Source of the DNA: a virus
DNA length: 25,579 nt
Strand: one strand, 5' to 3'
Virus record (IMG/VR): IMGVR_UViG_3300025326_000190
Coordinates: 1-25,579 of that record
Below are positions 109 to 20,186 of this stretch, piece after piece. The translations under genes were made by a program, and so were the position numbers. Below the pieces are notes generated by a model that was given only the letters and a program-made list of their open reading frames with translations, did not search any database and was not told where the DNA came from. The stretch's first letter is position 1. The number at the start of each line of letters is the position of its first letter.

Positions 109-473
109 GTTTTAGACACATATTTTAACAAATTTTTAATTTTTTCTTGTCTATCTTCTAAATCTGTGGGTAAAAACCGATTACATACATTGCATAGCAA
201 TCCGAAATCACAAGATTTCCATTTTTCAATATTTTCTTTTGTTAATTTATGTCCTGCTATAAATTCCCCTGGGCTGCCAATACTTTCTTCTCCCCCATGT
301 CTATGATCAAAAGCGTAGTCATAATTTTTAAATATAAGTTGTTTATTACAACCCTGACAATACGGAGGATAATTTTGCTTGATCCAATTTACCCAGTCTT
401 GTTTATATTTTGTTTTTAAAATTTGGGCATACTCTCGATTAGTTAAATATTTAGATGATTTTTGATTGCTCAT
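105..473 (-). CDS. Endonuclease VII / HNH-type nuclease
   Basis: A 122-residue protein with the layout of phage recombination endonuclease VII (T4 gp49 type) and HNH nucleases. A CxxC pair (YCQGC) near residue 40 is followed by the catalytic-looking AFDHRHG, a helix, then GLLCNVCNRFL with the second CxxC and an Asn two residues later. In this family two CxxC pairs bind a structural zinc and the DH region binds the catalytic metal that cuts branched DNA such as replication or packaging intermediates. The start ATG at 473 overlaps the end of the DNA polymerase gene by 23 bases, so it is the last gene of the replication operon. Seen: the Cys and DH motifs. Inferred: Holliday-junction resolution. 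Confidence 0.75.
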   Translation of the reverse strand: MSNQKSSKYLTNREYAQILKTKYKQDWVNWIKQNYPPYCQGCNKQLIFKNYDYAFDHRHGGEESIGSPGEFIAGHKLTKENIEKWKSCDFGLLCNVCNRFLPTDLEDRQEKIKNLLKYVSKT

Positions 474-2103
474 ACAAATTCTTTCCTATTTTATGTTCGG
501 CATTGTACTTTACCTTTAATTCTACTCCAAAAAATCTGTGAAAGTGTTCGGAGAAGTTACCATACTCCTTCTTAACTATCTGAATAACTTCATCTTTTTC
601 CTCTGGATGTACATCAATAGTGAGATCATCATGACAATCCAGACATACATGGCTTTGATAATTTTGTAATTTTTCTGATAAAACAACAGTCATAATTTTA
701 TTAAAATCAGTTCCGAGACCCTGTATCGGTGCATTTAATCCTTCATTATAATTATCTGTGTGTCTCCCTCTATGAGTATAGGGATGTTCTACATATTTTT
801 CATCTAAGATTCTGGCTCCTATTATCCTGAAAAGTTCTGACAATTCTGGATATCTGATAACAGTTAAATCATGTACAAATTCCTTTGCCTGGGGCCATGT
901 AAACCCATATTCCTGTACCAAAGTATATCCTCTGCCACCAAATATCGTACTAAAATTTGCATTCTTGGCCCTAGTTCTATCCGGTAAGAATTTAAATCTC
1001 TTTAGTGTAGCATCATGGATGTCATACCCCGACATAAGATCGTCTGCCAATTTGTGCTTTCCTGTTACAATCCACACTAACTCTGCTTGAAGTAATGCTT
1101 CCAATCTTGACCAGTCATTAGATAGTAAATATCCACCAGGGAATTTGGAAACAATACACTTTTTAAATTCACTTGTTTCTTTTCTTGGCATCACCTGAAT
1201 AAAATGTTCACTTAACCTACCAGTAAGAGTAGAGATAAGAGAATAATCAGGGTAATAATATCCCTCGTAAAGCCTCGATCTGAACCCTTCATTATATGTT
1301 CCTATTTGTTTTGTACATGCTCTCAATATTAAAACCAACTCTGCTTCTTTTGATTCTTGATTTTCAGCCAAATCTTTTAATACAAGTTCATTTAATTTTA
1401 TGTTCTTTTTTTCTGTTAATGGGACTTTAAAATATTTATGGAAATATTCCTTAACGGGCTTCGATGTATCACTATCCCAATCTAACTTGGTGGAATAATT
1501 TCTCAGTTCTTCGAGAGTTTTTATTCTCTTGGCTGTCCATATCGCTCCCTGTCTATCTAATTCATCGACATCTATTTTTATCCCTCTCATTTCGAGTGTG
1601 GTTAGATGCTTCACATACTCCATCATCATTTGAAATAGTGCCCACTTCCCAGTTCTTTTTAATGCTGGCTCTGTTAAATTCTTTAACTGTTTTGTGAATA
1701 TTAAATCGTGTTTGTTATAAAGTTTTAACCATCCGATGTCATTCCAATATTCTTCTCTTTCAAAATCTATCATCTTCTTGTAATTAGGATACTGATATAA
1801 TAACTTTGCCAAATTTTCCAGTTTATAACCATGACTATCTAAATCTTCCCTGAGAATATGTACCGCTACCTGGGTGTCATAAAAATTATCTGATAAACTA
1901 TAACCTTGTTTTAATAAACATTTAAGATCAAATTTAATATTGTGTCCTATAAATGTTACTGGGTGATCAGTCGTTACGGTTACATCACAAGGCCCTTGAT
2001 ACAAAAAATTATCTTCGGGATCATAAAACCCATTAAACAATACTTTAAAATCAGGGTGATGATGATCTACGCCGATGGTTTCGCAATCGAGTGTAATCAC
2101 CAT
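451..2103 (-). CDS. DNA polymerase family A with 3'-5' exonuclease
   Basis: A 550-residue replicative polymerase of the Pol I/T7 type. Exonuclease motifs: LDCET (D6, E8), GHNIKFDL (D59) and YNKHD (Y129-D133). Polymerase motifs: TGRLS at 294-298, motif A NDWSRLEALL (D330), motif B RTRAKNANF (R376, K380, N383, F384) and motif C CHDDLTI (H491-D493). No 5'-3' nuclease domain is present, as is usual for phage forms. Motif C reads HDD where the family normally has HDE. The frame can be extended to a TTG at 2124, but ATG at 2103, just after AAGGA and adjoining the upstream stop, is the better start. It sits between the primase-helicase and the junction nuclease in one operon. Confidence 0.95.
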   Translation of the reverse strand: MVITLDCETIGVDHHHPDFKVLFNGFYDPEDNFLYQGPCDVTVTTDHPVTFIGHNIKFDLKCLLKQGYSLSDNFYDTQVAVHILREDLDSHGYKLENLAKLLYQYPNYKKMIDFEREEYWNDIGWLKLYNKHDLIFTKQLKNLTEPALKRTGKWALFQMMMEYVKHLTTLEMRGIKIDVDELDRQGAIWTAKRIKTLEELRNYSTKLDWDSDTSKPVKEYFHKYFKVPLTEKKNIKLNELVLKDLAENQESKEAELVLILRACTKQIGTYNEGFRSRLYEGYYYPDYSLISTLTGRLSEHFIQVMPRKETSEFKKCIVSKFPGGYLLSNDWSRLEALLQAELVWIVTGKHKLADDLMSGYDIHDATLKRFKFLPDRTRAKNANFSTIFGGRGYTLVQEYGFTWPQAKEFVHDLTVIRYPELSELFRIIGARILDEKYVEHPYTHRGRHTDNYNEGLNAPIQGLGTDFNKIMTVVLSEKLQNYQSHVCLDCHDDLTIDVHPEEKDEVIQIVKKEYGNFSEHFHRFFGVELKVKYNAEHKIGKNLYEQSKII

Positions 2104-2104
2104 A

Positions 2105-2395
2105 TTAATCCTTGAAGGGGTCAATAATTCTTACTCTATATGTTCTGAAGTCTATCTTTTCAAATTCTTTCAATACAGGATCAGCCCAACAAGTAGATTT
2201 TTCTACAAATTTATGCCCAAACATTTGTACCAATTCCTTAATATCTTCTTCCTTCGGGGTGAATGTCCCTTCTTGTTCTCCTGTCGTACTGTTCCAATAA
2301 TTTTTTACTGTAACAAAATATTCATACACCGAATCAGCATATGCTCTTGGCTGGCCTGATCTTAGTGTTTCTATTTCTATAATTATTTTACTCAT
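2105..2395 (-). CDS. Hypothetical protein upstream of DNA polymerase
   Basis: A 96-residue acidic protein I do not recognise. It is mixed alpha/beta in appearance, with a charged middle (TPKEEDIKELVQMFGHKF) and no Cys pairs or membrane segment. The ATG at 2395 forms an ATGA overlap with the stop of the upstream gene; a TTG two codons earlier is possible but less likely. The polymerase gene starts one base after its stop. The position between primase-helicase and polymerase suggests a replication accessory role, which is inference only. Confidence 0.75.
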   Translation of the reverse strand: MSKIIIEIETLRSGQPRAYADSVYEYFVTVKNYWNSTTGEQEGTFTPKEEDIKELVQMFGHKFVEKSTCWADPVLKEFEKIDFRTYRVRIIDPFKD

Positions 2396-2748
2396 TTCCA
2401 ATAAAATCTCCCTTTTAATGTCTCACAATAAACTGCCCCTAATTCTTTTTCGACTGTGCCCCAACCTCCACGTTCGGCATCACCATTATTATATAGAAAA
2501 AATCTCCCTATCCAAAAACCATATTCGTTGTTATAAAATAATCTGTATAGATTATTATTTGTTTTATAATAATATCCTTCATAAACATCAAAGCGTCTGT
2601 ACGTTAACCAAGATTCTTTCACAAATTCCCAACAATATAACCATCTGCCAAGTGGAAAATCTTTGCAAGCCACAATATATGGCTCATGTCTATCTACGGT
2701 GTAAAACTTTCTTTTTTTCCCTGTCAAGTAAACTTTTATACTATCCAT
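2392..2748 (-). CDS. Hypothetical aromatic-rich protein
   Basis: A 118-residue protein unusually rich in Tyr, Trp and Phe, with clusters such as RWLYCWEFVKESWLTYRRF and EYGFWIGRFFLY. It has no predicted membrane segment because the aromatics alternate with charged residues; a beta-rich fold is likely. The preferred start is ATG at 2748, six bases after AAGGGAG. A TTG at 2772 would place the Shine-Dalgarno inside the gene. It overlaps the primase-helicase stop (ATGGATAG) and the next start (ATGA), so it is translationally coupled in the replication operon. Function unknown. Confidence 0.78.
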   Translation of the reverse strand: MDSIKVYLTGKKRKFYTVDRHEPYIVACKDFPLGRWLYCWEFVKESWLTYRRFDVYEGYYYKTNNNLYRLFYNNEYGFWIGRFFLYNNGDAERGGWGTVEKELGAVYCETLKGRFYWK

Positions 2749-4264
2749 TGAATACTCCCTTTTCCCAATCAATAGTAAATTGTTTGAATAATTGTCTAGC
2801 CCTTCTCTTATTTTTCATCCCAGTTACCCATACAGTTTTTTCATCTTTGTCCCTCACCATCCCGATACAAAGATTAATCACCATTAATTTAAACATCTTT
2901 GCCTCTGCTATTCTGTGTGTTCGCATCTTATAACACCAGGGTTCCTTACTATCAGAATAATCTTTGAAGGTGATAGTAACATGATCTAAAACCATAACAT
3001 GACAATCATTCTGCCTTGCAAGATTACCTAACTTCATCATCGTGTCTCTAAGTTCAAACCTGTTTTCATTCAATCCTCTTGATGATGGTATCCTGGCAAA
3101 GTAATCCACAATCACTAGCCCTGGTTTTATTTCTTTGATCTTTTTTTCTATTGTCTCTACGCTAACCGGATGGGATGTAGCATCTAGTAAAAAAACATCT
3201 GTTAAAGATTCTTCTGGATTAATGTTATGTCCATCATATCTTTCTTTCACCGATTTTAATTCATCTTCATAAAAGACATGCAATACATTATATCCATTCC
3301 TGACTGCATTAGCTCCGATTTGACAAGCAATAGTTGATTTACCTGTCTCTTGTTCTGCTACGAATAAACTTAGCTCTTTTAATCCTAATCCACCATCGAA
3401 GTATTGATCTAAACTTTTTATGCCTGTAGGGATAACTTCCACTGGTGGAAATTCTATCTTTTTAATCTCAGAATATTTATGAATATTGGCATGGGGGGAT
3501 GGATTTGAACCATCATCCTGTCGTTTTGGAGACGACTGCTCTACGTTTGGAGCTACCCCCACTCGATCTTGTGGTTCATACTTTGATATACTTTCTGCTA
3601 TTGTTCTCACTTCATATTGTTCCAATGGTGGATTACATTTATCTTGATTTTCTTGATCTATTGCTTTATAGATTGCTTCAAAACCAAACCCTCTATTTCG
3701 CATAGTGCCTGCTAGTGAAGTAAGATAATTATTTCTTTGGCCTTCTTTTACCATATCTAAATTTATAATATTGTGGCCGTGAAAATCTTCATACTCTTTG
3801 TGCTGCAACTTTTCATATAATTCTTTTGGAAATTCTGCTAGTGGGCATTCCATAGGTGGTACAATCCATTCGTAAGGTTTATGGGTGTCTGGATGAATAG
3901 ATGGGGGAGCAACTACATACCCATTATTTGATCGAATATCAATCCCAGGCCCTAGTTTTGCTACAGAATTTCTAACTCCTTCTAGGTATTTAAAATAATA
4001 GTGCCATCCTTTGCCTGTTCTTGTGAATGGAGTTATACTCTCGAATATTGTTTTTTCCACCACACTATCATCAAAAATTTCGTGGTCAACATCCACTACA
4101 ATTATTCCAGATACCTCCCCTGTTTGAATTCCTATATTCCCGTTATAAGTAATCGGGGTGTCCCATACCCTATTTTGCCAGTCTTTTAAAAATGGTATCT
4201 TCTCTTTGAGTGGTATTAATTTCCATCCGAGTTTTTTGTATTGCTCAATATAGTTTTCCAACAT
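2741..4264 (-). CDS. Bifunctional primase-polymerase / RecA-like helicase
   Basis: A 507-residue fusion. Residues about 1-155 match the bifunctional primase/polymerase (prim-pol) fold: VVDVDHE with metal ligands D58 and D60, the RTGKGWHYYF histidine motif near 88, and PGIDIRSNNGYVVAPPS. Residues about 165-230 resemble the primase C-terminal helical domain. From about 275 there is a RecA/DnaB-type ATPase with Walker A AEQETGKST (303-311), the acidic FYEDE, and Walker B LVIVDYF (383-389). The arrangement is functionally like T7 gp4 (primase plus helicase) but with a prim-pol type primase. Of three candidate starts (GTG 4270, ATG 4267, ATG 4264), ATG 4264 is best spaced from AGGAG. The first Gly of Walker A is Ala. 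Confidence 0.9.
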   Translation of the reverse strand: MLENYIEQYKKLGWKLIPLKEKIPFLKDWQNRVWDTPITYNGNIGIQTGEVSGIIVVDVDHEIFDDSVVEKTIFESITPFTRTGKGWHYYFKYLEGVRNSVAKLGPGIDIRSNNGYVVAPPSIHPDTHKPYEWIVPPMECPLAEFPKELYEKLQHKEYEDFHGHNIINLDMVKEGQRNNYLTSLAGTMRNRGFGFEAIYKAIDQENQDKCNPPLEQYEVRTIAESISKYEPQDRVGVAPNVEQSSPKRQDDGSNPSPHANIHKYSEIKKIEFPPVEVIPTGIKSLDQYFDGGLGLKELSLFVAEQETGKSTIACQIGANAVRNGYNVLHVFYEDELKSVKERYDGHNINPEESLTDVFLLDATSHPVSVETIEKKIKEIKPGLVIVDYFARIPSSRGLNENRFELRDTMMKLGNLARQNDCHVMVLDHVTITFKDYSDSKEPWCYKMRTHRIAEAKMFKLMVINLCIGMVRDKDEKTVWVTGMKNKRRARQLFKQFTIDWEKGVFNG

Positions 4265-4266
4265 CA

Positions 4267-4470
4267 TCACTCTCCTGGCGTGATGGGGTCATCATTCCTC
4301 ACAAATAACTCTCTTAGAGTGTCATAAACTACCCCTGGTACACAATGCCAGAAAAATTTATACCATAATTGCGCCTGAATTTCATGGTTCGCTGGCAATT
4401 TTACTTGATGCCCAACAAATTGAAAATCATGTCGCTGTTTCGCTGCCTTGAAATATCTAAGTCTTAGCAT
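4267..4470 (-). CDS. Hypothetical small basic protein
   Basis: A 67-residue protein (begins MLRLRYFKAAKQRHDF), not recognised. It is rich in Arg, Lys, His and aromatic residues, with no clear motif. The gene overlaps the RNA ligase end by 14 bases and its stop forms a GTGATGATG junction with the primase-helicase start. It could be a small nucleic-acid-binding replication accessory protein, judged only from its charge and neighbours. Confidence 0.72.
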   Translation of the reverse strand: MLRLRYFKAAKQRHDFQFVGHQVKLPANHEIQAQLWYKFFWHCVPGVVYDTLRELFVRNDDPITPGE

Positions 4471-9111: not shown

Positions 9112-9300
9112 TTATCCTCTTTCTATCAGATTAGCTCTGACTAGTCTGTTTAATTCCTTCTCTTGAATTATATCATGAGAGTTATGTCTTGTCAAGGTGA
9201 ATGTCAAGGATTGATACTTAACCATGACATGCGAACCTTTGCAATATCTAATTTCACAACCACGATTGACAAGCAATTTTTCAAGATCACGGTATCGCAT
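9112..9300 (-). CDS. HicA-like dsRBD-fold protein (orphan)
   Basis: 62 residues, the usual HicA length. Hallmarks: N-terminal helix (RYRDLEKLLVNRG), strand, then CKGSHVMVKY carrying the conserved Gly-Ser-His with H24 as the likely catalytic residue, strands, and a final helix (EKELNRLVRANLIERG). HicA toxins are mRNA-cutting ribonucleases of about 60 residues normally paired with HicB. No HicB is visible beside it, so this may be a phage effector against host mRNA, a partner for a host antitoxin, or only an RNA-binding relative. GGGGATTGA before ATG 9300 is a fair ribosome site. Confidence 0.7.
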   Translation of the reverse strand: MRYRDLEKLLVNRGCEIRYCKGSHVMVKYQSLTFTLTRHNSHDIIQEKELNRLVRANLIERG

Positions 9301-11020: not shown

Positions 11021-11215
11021 TTATATACCTTTTTCTATTTGTTTCCTAACATACTCTCTAAACTTATCTTCACTAAATCTTGTGTTATCCTGAGCAAGTG
11101 TATTGATTAATTTATCGTAAACTGATGAGACTCCATCCAATTCTGTTTCATTTTTGACATCCAGAATACTTTCAGCAATTACGTTTGCCAATTTTATGTA
11201 GTCTTTTCTCGTCAT
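11021..11215 (-). CDS. Small conserved-type phage protein (64 residues)
   Basis: Begins MTRKDYIKLANVIAESILDV and is helical throughout. Proteins starting 'M-T-R-K-D-Y-x-x-I/L-A' are common among tailed-phage early genes, with no known function. TAGGAGAATAAA precedes ATG 11215. The promoter at 11236-11264 gives it a short leader, so it probably heads the main leftward early transcript. Confidence 0.78.
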   Translation of the reverse strand: MTRKDYIKLANVIAESILDVKNETELDGVSSVYDKLINTLAQDNTRFSEDKFREYVRKQIEKGI

Positions 11216-11235
11216 TTTATTCTCCTATTTAGTTT

Positions 11236-11264
11236 ATCCTATCACAAGGTTTTAAATTTGTCAA
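11236..11264 (-). promoter_or_regulatory. Leftward sigma70-type early promoter
   Basis: Reading leftward, TTGACA at 11264-11259, 17 bases, TAGGAT at 11241-11236 preceded by TGA (extended -10). A short leader carries the TAGGAG ribosome site for the gene at 11215. It starts inside or just after the stop of the 43-residue gene. Confidence 0.68.
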
Positions 11265-11270
11265 GCAATT

Positions 11271-11402
11271 TCAATTCCGATTTTTAGGACATTCAATATC
11301 GTGTACTTCTTTTAGGTAAATTTCTAATGCACTATCCAACGTAATATTCTTGTTTAGACTCAGAATACATATATAGTCGAATTCTTGTTGTGTTAGGTGC
11401 AT
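11271..11402 (-). CDS. Small hypothetical protein (43 residues), nearest the origin
   Basis: Begins MHLTQQEFDYICILSLNKNI, acidic, helical, ending in a CPKNRN tail. ATG 11402 is preceded by AATAGGAGTAAATAAAA, a good ribosome site that recurs before two other genes. It is the first leftward gene after the origin region; no clear promoter for it was found between 11403 and 11590. Not recognised. Confidence 0.6.
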   Translation of the reverse strand: MHLTQQEFDYICILSLNKNITLDSALEIYLKEVHDIECPKNRN

Positions 11403-11430
11403 TTTTATTTACTCCTATTGTTTATGGTTA

Positions 11431-11520
11431 GTGTCATTTAATAGGTTTAATATGCAATAGCTATGCCATGCCTATTATTTGCATAAATATATGATTTAAT
11501 TACTGTACAATAAATGACAC
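11431..11520. repeat. Nested inverted repeats at the origin-proximal end
   Basis: An outer pair GTGTCATTTA (11431-11440) and TAAATGACAC (11511-11520), ten bases, perfect. An inner pair TATGCAA (11451-11457) and TTGCATA (11479-11485), with CAATAG/CTATT pairing around it. The element could extrude as a cruciform or bind a dimeric protein. Two related direct sites, ACAATAAATGACACA and ACAATAATTGACACA, end near 11521 and 11571, so TGACAC occurs three times in this stretch. No gene is visible at 11403-12085. Confidence 0.6.
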
Positions 11521-11590
11521 ACTATGTAAATATGTAACCAATTCCACAATATCATGACAATAATTGACACAATAAGACTTGATAGGACAA

Positions 11591-11608
11591 GTGTACATTA
11601 TTGTACAC
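11591..11608. repeat. 18-bp palindrome, operator-like, copy 2
   Basis: GTGTACA-TTAT-TGTACAC, seven-base perfect arms with a four-base centre. The inner 17 bases differ by one base from the site at 5691-5707. Presence in only the two main regulatory gaps suggests one DNA-binding protein acting at both. Confidence 0.65.
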
Positions 11609-11710
11609 TATAGCATATTACTATAGCATAGTATAATGTATAACATAATGCTATATACAATATATAGGGCTTGCTATAATATGTTACATACTATATATAG
11701 TATAGTATAG
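11609..11710. other. AT-rich tract, possible DNA-unwinding element
   Basis: About 100 bases almost wholly A and T with repeated TATAGCATA, CTATA and the palindrome ACTATATATAGT, directly beside the repeat array. In bacterial-type origins an AT-rich unwinding region adjoins the initiator boxes, which is the reason for this reading. No coding frame with support is seen. Confidence 0.5.
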
Positions 11711-11809
11711 CTGTTGATATCCTGTTGATATGCTGTGATTATCCTGTGATTATCTTGTGGATATCCTGTGAATAAACCTGTTGATATCCTGTGGATAACC
11801 TGTGTATAA
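11711..11809 (+). repeat. Nine tandem initiator-box-like repeats with 11-bp period (candidate origin)
   Basis: Units start at 11711, 11722, 11733, 11744, 11755, 11766, 11778, 11789 and 11800; period 11, once 12. Consensus CTGTKGATAT/A with C in front: three units are CTGTTGATAT, two CTGTGATTAT, the others TTGTGGATAT, CTGTGAATAA, CTGTGGATAA and CTGTGTATAA. The reverse complements of the sixth, eighth and ninth fit the DnaA box TTWTNCACA, and the eighth is the perfect TTATCCACA. One repeat per helical turn places all sites on one face of the DNA. Either host DnaA or a phage initiator binding iterons is possible. Confidence 0.75.
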
Positions 11810-11826
11810 CTTTGCCCTTACCCAAG

Positions 11827-11857
11827 CCACCCCACCCCAGGCCAGGGGGAAGGGTGG
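11827..11857. repeat. GC-rich hairpin beside the repeat array
   Basis: CCACCC (11827-11832) pairs with GGGTGG (11852-11857) and CCCC (11835-11838) with GGGG (11845-11848), loop AGGCCA. This is the most GC-rich short stretch noticed in an AT-rich window. No U-run follows on either strand, so a simple terminator is unlikely; a replication-priming or fork-arrest structure, or part of an RNA, are options. Confidence 0.5.
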
Positions 11858-11894
11858 TCAGATGGGGACTGAATTTTCGCATACTTTTGCATAG

Positions 11895-11913
11895 AACCCT
11901 ATCCCACAGGGTT
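11895..11913. repeat. Short inverted repeat with a third copy of one arm
   Basis: AACCCT (11895-11900), ATCCCAC, AGGGTT (11908-11913), then AACCCT again at 11935-11940. The middle AGGGTT can pair with either flank, giving two exclusive hairpins upstream of the rightward promoter. Role unknown. Confidence 0.4.
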
Positions 11914-11959
11914 GTGGTAGAATATATTTTCAATAACCCTCCTTTTTTGGTCAATAAAC

Positions 11960-11989
11960 TTGACTTTGGCACTTTCAATATGATATAAT
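11960..11989 (+). promoter_or_regulatory. Rightward sigma70-type promoter of the structural block
   Basis: TTGACT at 11960-11965, 18 bases, TATAAT at 11984-11989 preceded by TGA (extended -10), followed by TATAGTATAC. It shares AACTTGACTTT, spacing and TATAATTATA with the two leftward promoters. The first downstream gene starts at 12086 or 12303, so the leader is 90-300 bases. It is the only strong rightward promoter I can see before the packaging genes. Confidence 0.78.
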
Positions 11990-12085
11990 TATAGTATACA
12001 CTTCAATCATACCTTCATCATCTTCATTAAATCTGAATTATATATTATAATAATATAATATATAAAACCTCCTATAATAATAACA

Positions 12086-12280
12086 ATGAATATAATATTA
12101 AAGACTATAACTTATTTTAATAATAAAATAAACAAAAAACTCACTTATATATATAATAATATTTATACTTTTGATTTGGTGAATTTATTATTATATATTG
12201 TATTGATTATATTATTCTTTCCTGTATTATATTTATTTACAGGAATTCTTACATTAATTAAATTCATTTATAAATATTAA
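12086..12280 (+). CDS. Putative small membrane protein (64 residues)
   Basis: The frame encodes a basic, Asn-rich N-terminus (residues 1-30) and a hydrophobic segment of about 28 residues (31-59, LVNLLLYIVLIILFFPVLY and on), ending KFIYKY. One long or two short membrane passes are predicted. It is the first frame after the rightward promoter. No Shine-Dalgarno precedes the ATG and the region is extremely AT-rich, so it may be a chance frame; a holin-like role cannot be claimed from this alone. Confidence 0.42.
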   Translation: MNIILKTITYFNNKINKKLTYIYNNIYTFDLVNLLLYIVLIILFFPVLYLFTGILTLIKFIYKY

Positions 12281-17377: not shown

Positions 17378-19488
17378 TGCCAGAAGAAATTTTAGAAGAA
17401 GAATCTAGTCAAGAATTTCTGATCGACAATAAAAATTACGCAGAAGATACAGAGAAAGCTGCCGAGGCGTTATCTTTTCTTGACAAAGTTTCTACAGAAT
17501 TGCAGATGCGTAGAGGGCTATTGAATGCGAAGTATTTAGAGTATTACAATATTTATCGCTGTACATTTGATGTCAGATATTATAATGGTGAAGCACAAGT
17601 TTACGTTCCTATTTTGAGAAAAGCGTGTGAGCAGTTTGTTTCAAGAATTAAAAGAGCATTGTTTCCCACCGATGATGTTTTTGATGTAGAACCAACCGAC
17701 AATGATATGGATGATGAATCTGATGCTATTTATGATTACATGAAATGGCAGGTAGAAAAAAGAGTTAAGCTAAAGCAAAAAGTTGATAGATTTCTTAGAC
17801 AGCTTGTCATGTACGGATGGGCAGTGATTGAATGCGGATGGGAAGAAGAAGTTAAGAAAATTATAGGATTAAGAAAGAGGCAAACGCCAGTAAGAATAAA
17901 ACAAACTGATCCCATCACTGGAAATACTTATTATGAAGAAACTGGTGAGATGGAGACAGTTATTGAGGAAGCTGAAAAGAAAATTGTAAAGAAACGCAAT
18001 CCAACATTTGATGTACAAGATAATTTCGCTACATATTTATGGCCACACACAGCTAATGATATAGATGAAGTGGTTGGGGTAATCACTTTAAGTAAACAGA
18101 CTCGAAATCATCTAGTATCACAAATGAAAAAAGGGATATATGTTAATGTCAATATACCAGAAATATCTCTGGGAGATGTATCAGACCAGTGGAATTGGTC
18201 AAAGGAATATAGATTAGCCAAAGACGGATTGACCGATCAGGAAGATTCACAAAAAACCTTCTTTAGAGCAACACTTATTAAATATCAAGGTCTTTATAAC
18301 TGGGGAACAGAAGATGATCCAGACGAGCAAGAAACGATAATCACGACTATCGGTGGGAAGATTTGTATTGAATTAAGGAAGTGTCAGTATTTTGATAATG
18401 AGAAGCCATTTCTACTTGGTCGCATTAATGAGTTAATGAATGAAATTTATTCTTCTGGTATGTATGAGCCTTTGGCTTCATTACAATATTATTTTAATGA
18501 TACAGCTAATCAGACATTTGATAGTAATTATTATTCTCTTAACCCTATTGTCAAGTATGACCCAGGCAGAGTAGTAAATATAGCTTCTATCGCATTCGCA
18601 CCTGGGGCTATGTGGGCATTAACCGACCCTTCTGCTGCTGATATCATCAGACCACCAGAAGTGGCTTCTATCGGATTTAGCATCATGGCACAAGTTAAGG
18701 GATTGATCGAAGAATATCCTGGTTTACAGAATATACCAATGACGGGAAGAAAGGCTGCGTTGCATATACAAGCACTTCAGCAAGAATATTCACTTCCAGT
18801 ACAGCAGATCGTTGAGAATTTAGAAGATACTATAATGTCTCCTTGGTTAAAGAAGGCTTATAGCAGAGTACAACAATTCTTGAATAAAGCAGAGATTGTG
18901 AGGGTAACTGGTAGAAAGGGTGCTAAATATTGGAGAACAATCGACCCTGAGAATCTCGTAGGAGATTATAATTTTTATTGGAGAGGGGCTAATCAGACTA
19001 CCAACATACATATTAAATCACAACAAATAGCACAATTCTTAAACACAATGGCTCCTTGGGTACAATTAATGATGCAGCAACAGAAATTACCTAATATTGA
19101 ATGGCTATTGAAAGAATACTGGTCAGATGGGCTTGCTATGGATGGTGAAGATAAACTATTCATCAGTATGCAGGATGAAAGAGCATTACCTCCTGAGATT
19201 GAAAATATGATTATGGCATTGGGCAAGCCACTTCCAACTAGCATGGGGGATGACCACCAAGGACACATGCAAGCACACCAACCATTACTACAATCAGACA
19301 TGCCTGAAATTGTGGAAATAGCCAGAATGCACATGGAGAAGCATCAGAAAGATTTTGAAAATATGCAGAAATTAATGCAGCAACAAGCTGCTGCTCCACC
19401 ACCAGAACCACCAGCAGAGCCAGGACAGGAAGTGGAAGGCGAAAGAATGATGGAAGGAAATCAACCAATAGGAAATTTTAGGGGGTAG
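17377..19488 (+). CDS. Portal protein
   Basis: 703 residues, the size of podovirus-type portals (T7 gp8 class about 536, N4 gp59 about 760). It starts acidic, then has the clip/stem region with YVPILRKACEQFVSRIKRAL and FPTDDVFDVEPTDND, the wing region near YMKWQVEKRVKLKQKVDRFL, and a C-terminal helical barrel-like tail rich in Gln, Met and Pro (MQKLMQQQAAAPPPEPPAEP). Immediately downstream of the large terminase and upstream of scaffold and capsid, as expected for the DNA gate. No protease motif is seen. GGGGAATGTA precedes the ATG. Confidence 0.85.
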   Translation: MPEEILEEESSQEFLIDNKNYAEDTEKAAEALSFLDKVSTELQMRRGLLNAKYLEYYNIYRCTFDVRYYNGEAQVYVPILRKACEQFVSRIKRALFPTDDVFDVEPTDNDMDDESDAIYDYMKWQVEKRVKLKQKVDRFLRQLVMYGWAVIECGWEEEVKKIIGLRKRQTPVRIKQTDPITGNTYYEETGEMETVIEEAEKKIVKKRNPTFDVQDNFATYLWPHTANDIDEVVGVITLSKQTRNHLVSQMKKGIYVNVNIPEISLGDVSDQWNWSKEYRLAKDGLTDQEDSQKTFFRATLIKYQGLYNWGTEDDPDEQETIITTIGGKICIELRKCQYFDNEKPFLLGRINELMNEIYSSGMYEPLASLQYYFNDTANQTFDSNYYSLNPIVKYDPGRVVNIASIAFAPGAMWALTDPSAADIIRPPEVASIGFSIMAQVKGLIEEYPGLQNIPMTGRKAALHIQALQQEYSLPVQQIVENLEDTIMSPWLKKAYSRVQQFLNKAEIVRVTGRKGAKYWRTIDPENLVGDYNFYWRGANQTTNIHIKSQQIAQFLNTMAPWVQLMMQQQKLPNIEWLLKEYWSDGLAMDGEDKLFISMQDERALPPEIENMIMALGKPLPTSMGDDHQGHMQAHQPLLQSDMPEIVEIARMHMEKHQKDFENMQKLMQQQAAAPPPEPPAEPGQEVEGERMMEGNQPIGNFRG

Positions 19489-20044: not shown

Positions 20045-20121
20045 TGGGTAAAACGTGGAAGGATTCTGAAAGTAAGAAACCTATTTATACAAGTAAAAAA
20101 CAAATTAAGAGCAGGGGGTAA
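20044..20121 (+). CDS. 25-residue basic micro-gene overlapping the tRNA
   Basis: ATG 20044 lies in the TTTTAATGG overlap that links the neighbouring genes. The peptide is MGKTWKDSESKKPIYTSKKQ followed by five residues ending SRG. Its stop codon uses bases 20119-20121 inside the tRNA-Pro gene, so the last ten bases are shared with the tRNA. It may be a real micro-protein or a translated stub left by tRNA insertion. Confidence 0.42.
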   Translation: MGKTWKDSESKKPIYTSKKQIKSRG

Positions 20122-20186
20122 GTCAGTAGTAGACTACTCGGCTTGGAACCGAGAGGACATTGGTGCGAATCCAATCTCCCTGACCA
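20112..20186 (+). tRNA. tRNA-Pro (anticodon UGG)
   Basis: A full cloverleaf: acceptor CAGGGGG/CTCCCTG with one G-U pair, D stem AGTC/GACT, anticodon stem CTCGG/CCGAG with loop CTTGGAA giving anticodon TGG (20144-20146), five-base variable region, T stem ATTGG/CCAAT, discriminator A and an encoded CCA end (20184-20186). UGG reads CCA and related proline codons. The T loop is TGCGAAT rather than the usual TTCRANY pattern. It lies in the late operon between tiny protein genes, so it is co-transcribed and would need processing out of the message. Confidence 0.92.

Follow-up and report, generated by a model that had tools for sequence, protein, structure and literature searches.

In E. coli oriC the low-affinity DnaA sites lie exactly 2 bp apart, face one direction and fill step by step, starting at a strong box (PMC4451416). 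They form the arrays R5M-tau2-I1-I2 and C3-C2-I3-C1, with R1, R2 and R4 as strong anchors. The plasmid and phage-plasmid origins of P1, F, RK2 and pSC101 place host DnaA boxes within the origin of a mobile element and add iterons and an encoded Rep. P1 has two DnaA-box arrays, one of them beside its DUE (PMC4980987). DnaA boxes have also been listed for the injection stop signal of T5 (PMC13250531).

The replication starts of uncultivated phages are mostly unknown. The DNA analysed here, referred to as the window, is the whole 25.6-kb virus fragment IMGVR_UViG_3300025326_000190 (25,579 nucleotides), in which a tandem array of nine DnaA-box-like units had been predicted to be a candidate replication origin. 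As in the E. coli arrays, the window has weak 9-mers 2 bp apart, its sites fall on one helix face and AT-rich DNA adjoins the array. The original prediction had taken one box per helical turn to be denser than ordinary bacterial origins, which is incorrect, the E. coli oriC arrays being equally spaced (PMC4451416). Unlike oriC, the window has a single array whose strong boxes cluster at one end. It has no dnaA or dnaN neighbourhood, these phage records contain no DnaA gene, and the phage encodes a polymerase and a prim-pol/helicase of its own. The origins of P1, F, RK2 and pSC101 resemble the one proposed here in carrying host DnaA boxes within a mobile element, but their Rep and iterons have no recognised counterpart in the window. 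With the T5 stop signal and the left ends of T7-like phages the window shares tandem 11-bp DnaA boxes in the non-coding DNA of dsDNA phages; those boxes are associated with DNA entry or with early control, whereas the array of the window is found where replication and structural genes diverge, at a skew minimum.

The reading that we favour, at somewhat better than an even chance, is that the array is a platform for host DnaA and constitutes the core of a bidirectional origin of phage replication. An origin using host DnaA is thus still the best-supported reading of the locus, while three points bearing on it, the density of the boxes, the hairpin and conservation of all nine units, were lost or lost weight. 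If the array marks an origin, origins may be readable from sequence in many phage lineages, and phage replication would be linked to the host DnaA cycle. If such arrays capture DnaA instead, they would represent a widespread phage strategy against host initiation. On either reading the array is a short, testable target.

Sequence of the array

The array and its principal units are as follows.

11711 to 11810, minus strand: DnaA-box-like array, nine head-to-tail 11-bp units (one of 12 bp), TTWTNCACA on the minus strand
11767 to 11775, minus strand: unit 6, perfect DnaA box TTATTCACA
11790 to 11798, minus strand: unit 8, perfect consensus DnaA box TTATCCACA
11801 to 11809, minus strand: unit 9, perfect DnaA box TTATACACA
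11778 to 11799, minus strand: two-unit core, units 7-8, CTGTTGATATCCTGTGGATAAC, identical at 20 of 22 positions at the homologous junction of L010/L012 (a second lineage, described below)

All nine units start exactly where they had been predicted to start; unit 6 is the one of 12 bp, and the last unit ends at 11810. The array was the top-scoring tandem repeat of the window (period 11, 8.8 copies, score 96; Tandem Repeats Finder). Units were scored against TTWTNCACA, a consensus that may differ from the host's own DnaA box. Three units had been predicted to match it on the reverse strand, and the boxes at 11767, 11790 and 11801 are indeed perfect. Unit 5 has one mismatch and the remaining five units have two each. 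The strong boxes (units 6, 8 and 9) thus lie toward the right end, and weaker units extend toward an AT-rich tract.

Single perfect boxes are uninformative, since the window holds five against a mean of 4.0 in shuffles. Three of the five, however, fall within 43 bp, and three per 60 bp were found in 0 of 300 dinucleotide shuffles; a looser spaced triple pattern was found in 0 of 100. The clustering of DnaA boxes is therefore beyond chance, as in an oriC-like origin, and the three strong and six weak units, all in one direction and in an 11-bp register, have oriC-like spacing.

The units could also be iterons of a phage-encoded initiator, their likeness to DnaA boxes being incidental or partial. 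Six of the nine deviate from the DnaA consensus, and TGTTGATAT/TGTGATTAT are exact repeats, as this reading would have it. We consider it improbable in the light of the gene content, the relatives and the wider survey given below.

Gene content and intergenic setting

All main genes left of the array run leftward. This block also encodes an RNA ligase and GP88, and its replication genes are the following.

451 to 2124, minus strand: family A DNA polymerase (PF00476, phrog_17), leftward block
2741 to 4270, minus strand: single protein combining Prim-Pol, PriCT_1 and RecA/DnaB-like helicase domains, leftward block

The rightward block, to the right of the array, encodes the terminase, portal and major capsid protein (MCP). 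The array lies in an 870-bp gap (11215 to 12086) where transcription diverges, and a single strand switch beside it confirmed the predicted position at the junction of the two transcription blocks. No initiator or Rep family was detected among the scanned ORFs of the window and of a 39-kb relative, genomes that may be incomplete; the earlier statement that no initiator gene is recognisable was borne out to this extent. This result weighs against iterons with a cognate phage protein, although many leftward genes have no recognised function and could be cited in favour of such a protein.

The following features were located in the gap and beside it.

11600 to 11710, no strand: AT-rich tract, candidate unwinding region, 77% AT, 3' of the TTATNCACA boxes
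12037 to 12136, no strand: least stable 100-bp stretch, second candidate unwinding region, with a similar ATAATATAAT tract in L010
11811 to 11872, no strand: GC-rich block, C-rich then G-rich halves, 65% GC
11960 to 11989, plus strand: sigma-70-type promoter TTGACT-18-TATAAT, 11 of 12, TG-extended, serving the rightward structural block
11236 to 11264, minus strand: TG-extended leftward promoter-like site, TTGACA-17-TAGGAT, ahead of the first gene in the replication block

The AT-rich tract that had been said to adjoin the array on one side is real (77% AT at 11600-11710 against 64% window-wide), and 11609-11708 ranks fourth among the least stable 100-bp stretches of the window. A DnaA-trio was absent 3' of the boxes, the longest in-phase [C/T]TA run being 1 in the window and 2 in L010, so that unwinding, if it occurs, would not be of the described basal kind. 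On the other side of the array a GC-rich hairpin had been predicted. The block is GC-rich and is partly kept in L010 (TGCCCTT-CCCAAG ... GGGGACTGAA), but the hairpin was rejected as a structural element: folding gave z = 0.3 against shuffles, and a different, weak structure is predicted in the relative. The rightward promoter at 11960-11989 is almost unchanged in L010.

The original prediction had named cumulative GC skew as a check. The raw minimum of the window falls at 12168, about 400 bp from the array, and that of the relative's 39-kb contig at 17915, with boxes at 18316. A skew minimum near the boxes, as expected for a DnaA-dependent origin, is thus present in both, though confounded with transcription direction; because GC skew and transcription direction switch together, the skew of the window is no independent proof of an origin.

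A different function for bound DnaA was weighed at this point. The array may bind host DnaA without being an origin. It would then act by capturing the protein, which would stall initiation in the host or regulate early transcription or the entry of the genome, as has been proposed for DnaA boxes in the T5 injection stop signal, and replication would begin elsewhere or be driven by recombination or transcription. Control of transcription is made less attractive by distance. The rightward promoter is about 150 bp downstream of the array and the leftward promoter-like site about 450 bp away, distances that exceed ordinary promoter contact. The position of the array at the skew minimum in both lineages also speaks against this alternative. 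A T5-type injection stop signal would be expected in first-step-transfer DNA with A1/A2-type genes, and no A1/A2-like gene was recognised among the window proteins scanned. Evidence from other phages, given below, leaves DnaA capture a serious alternative, albeit a distinctly less probable one than an origin.

Within the otherwise diverged left part of the gap, L010 keeps the block CACAATATCATGACAATAATTGACAC (11545-11572), which has TGACA repeats and may be an operator. A family of CTATAGCATA repeats surrounding the array occurred at chance level and was discarded.

Conservation in relatives

Three contigs (L005, L006 and L013) belong to the same species as the window, and the array is identical in L006 and L013. 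The second lineage (L010 and L012) is 86% identical to the window in TerL, 82% in portal and 93% in MCP, and has the same gene order and single strand switch. Alignment-based scans for distant relatives returned the same two lineages only, and no nearer relative or host was found among genome contigs by TerL or MCP.

At the homologous junction L010/L012 carry CTTGTTGATAACCTGTGGATAAC, which matches units 7-8 of the window at 20 of 22 bases. This pair of boxes has an AT-rich part on its left and, on the other side, the GC-rich block and promoter also seen in the window; it was reproduced in 0 of 3000 shuffles of the relative's gap. A search for the array at the same junction in relatives, which the original prediction had called for, therefore recovered the two-unit core and not the nine-fold array. 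Nine units in one lineage and two in the other mean that copy number is plastic, yet the site, the register and a strong box are retained. Variable copy number is also a property of iteron plasmids and fits an iteron reading, whereas the retention of perfect DnaA boxes in both lineages does not.

The same comparison bears on the possibility that the array is a functionless by-product of slippage in an AT-rich gap. Other short AT repeats are present in the gap, the nine-fold array is missing in the second lineage, and distant relatives have no array: in the complete genomes MW202637 and MW202477 (about 25% identity, same gene plan) neither an array nor a DnaA-box cluster was found. Slippage is nevertheless very improbable, given that the core pair is conserved (20/22) in an otherwise diverged gap and that many unrelated phages retain perfect boxes in the same register.

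L211 and L212 (33% identity in MCP) have two perfect DnaA boxes 11 bp apart (L212:6714-6733, L211:4375-4394). The pair lies between the terminase and portal genes and not at the homologous junction, and was not accepted as a homologous site.

Several genes and gene calls were recorded in the course of these comparisons. A HicA-like toxin-domain protein of 62 amino acids (window 9112-9300, minus strand; E 6e-6, just below the Pfam cut-off) is 98% identical in the 86% lineage, which makes its gene the most conserved small leftward gene; no HicB partner was recognised. The leftward phage genes of that lineage include one for a type II secretion G/prepilin-like protein (L015:4929-5345). ARAGORN called a tRNA-Trp (cca) at window 3487-3562, minus strand, inside the prim-pol/helicase gene and on the same strand; it is probably false, since it was not called in the relatives' contigs. 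A tRNA-Pro (tgg) at 20112-20186, plus strand, within the structural block is kept in same-species contigs, whereas the 86% lineage lacks it and has different tRNA calls.

Proposed initiation

If the array is an origin that uses host DnaA, the three strong boxes at its right end would anchor the protein, and cooperative binding would fill the weak units leftward, with one DnaA per helical turn on one face. The DnaA filament may then open adjoining AT-rich DNA, with the left tract the likeliest site. At the opened site the phage's prim-pol/helicase and family A polymerase would enter and copy outward, each fork being co-directional with the gene block that it crosses. Against this reading, the phage encodes both proteins and so need not use the loading of host DnaB by DnaA; the reduction to two units in the second lineage, the missing array of MW202637 and MW202477 and the absent DnaA-trio also count against it.

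Arrays in other phages

Pattern scans found at least 120 IMG/VR contigs with three or more tandem 11-bp DnaA boxes. The matches listed merged into 70 contexts, of which 62 were intergenic by a simple ORF call, the ORF calls of the survey being crude. Contamination by bacterial oriC fragments was rejected: 1 of 50 records with arrays contained a DnaA gene, located about 42 kb away from its array, and the surveyed arrays are thus not chromosome origins.

Divergent gaps were enriched for arrays. In the first survey 13 of 37 arrays located in gaps were at divergent ones; among 142 control gaps from the same contigs, 19 were divergent (OR 3.5, p=0.004). New loci (L265-L314) supplied 16 contexts independent of the first survey, and a bare box pair was seen at a divergent gap in L275, L297 and L310. 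This second, smaller set had the same trend (OR 5.7, p=0.07; pooled p=0.0006). Divergent gaps with an array had a skew jump of 0.22, those without one a jump of 0.07. Across 20 contigs (20-88 kb) the median cumulative-skew percentile was 0.22 for arrays and 0.44 for the remaining gaps (p=0.004), and in 5 of the 20 the array lay in the lowest 5% of cumulative skew. In one of these contigs, G037 (locus L084), the skew reaches its minimum at the array even though both flanking genes have the same direction. Skew and divergent gaps together support an origin role for a subset of arrays, and the bias toward skew minima weighs against the capture reading. Arrays in co-directional gaps, of which there are many, had no mean skew jump, which speaks for capture and against an origin. 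The surveyed phages had no consistent AT-rich side of the array (18 versus 17).

Arrays were also found in phages of known type. Replication of T7 and T5 is initiated by means other than DnaA. T7-like phages carry arrays in the early left-end region (L202, MW394389 4090-4255; L203, KP090453 37250-37390), and the T5-like MH370377 has one in its non-coding pre-early region; in both groups the arrays are outside the known origins. Such arrays in early or pre-early non-coding DNA, together with the T5 stop signal described with DnaA boxes (PMC13250531), are evidence for capture, and they mean that an array alone is no proof of an origin.

As to the protein bound, the 21-bp core of the window, TGTTGATANCCTGTGGATAAC, occurs in at least 71 stretches, unrelated viral contigs included. 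Unit sequences of an iteron origin would be specific to a lineage, and such recurrence in unrelated phages is unexpected for a lineage-specific initiator; it is better explained by DnaA, a host factor that these phages would have in common, than by an iteron protein specific to one phage. Judging from the sequence, we have fair confidence that host DnaA would bind the array.

Tentatively, and at rather less than an even chance, we suggest that tailed phages with their own polymerase and helicase-primase initiate at compact, oriC-like arrays of host DnaA boxes of 11 bp, placed where their two transcription blocks diverge, and that they form a broad class that has yet to be collected. Were this class real, phage replication would be tied to the initiation switch of the host.

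Two further kinds of array were noted. L078 and four similar loci have five identical TGTTGATAAC units in a co-directional gap, with no perfect DnaA box, perhaps reflecting a host with a variant DnaA box. The microvirus PQ006258, an ssDNA phage, has five perfect tandem DnaA boxes (L205:3776-3830) directly after its replication initiator gene.
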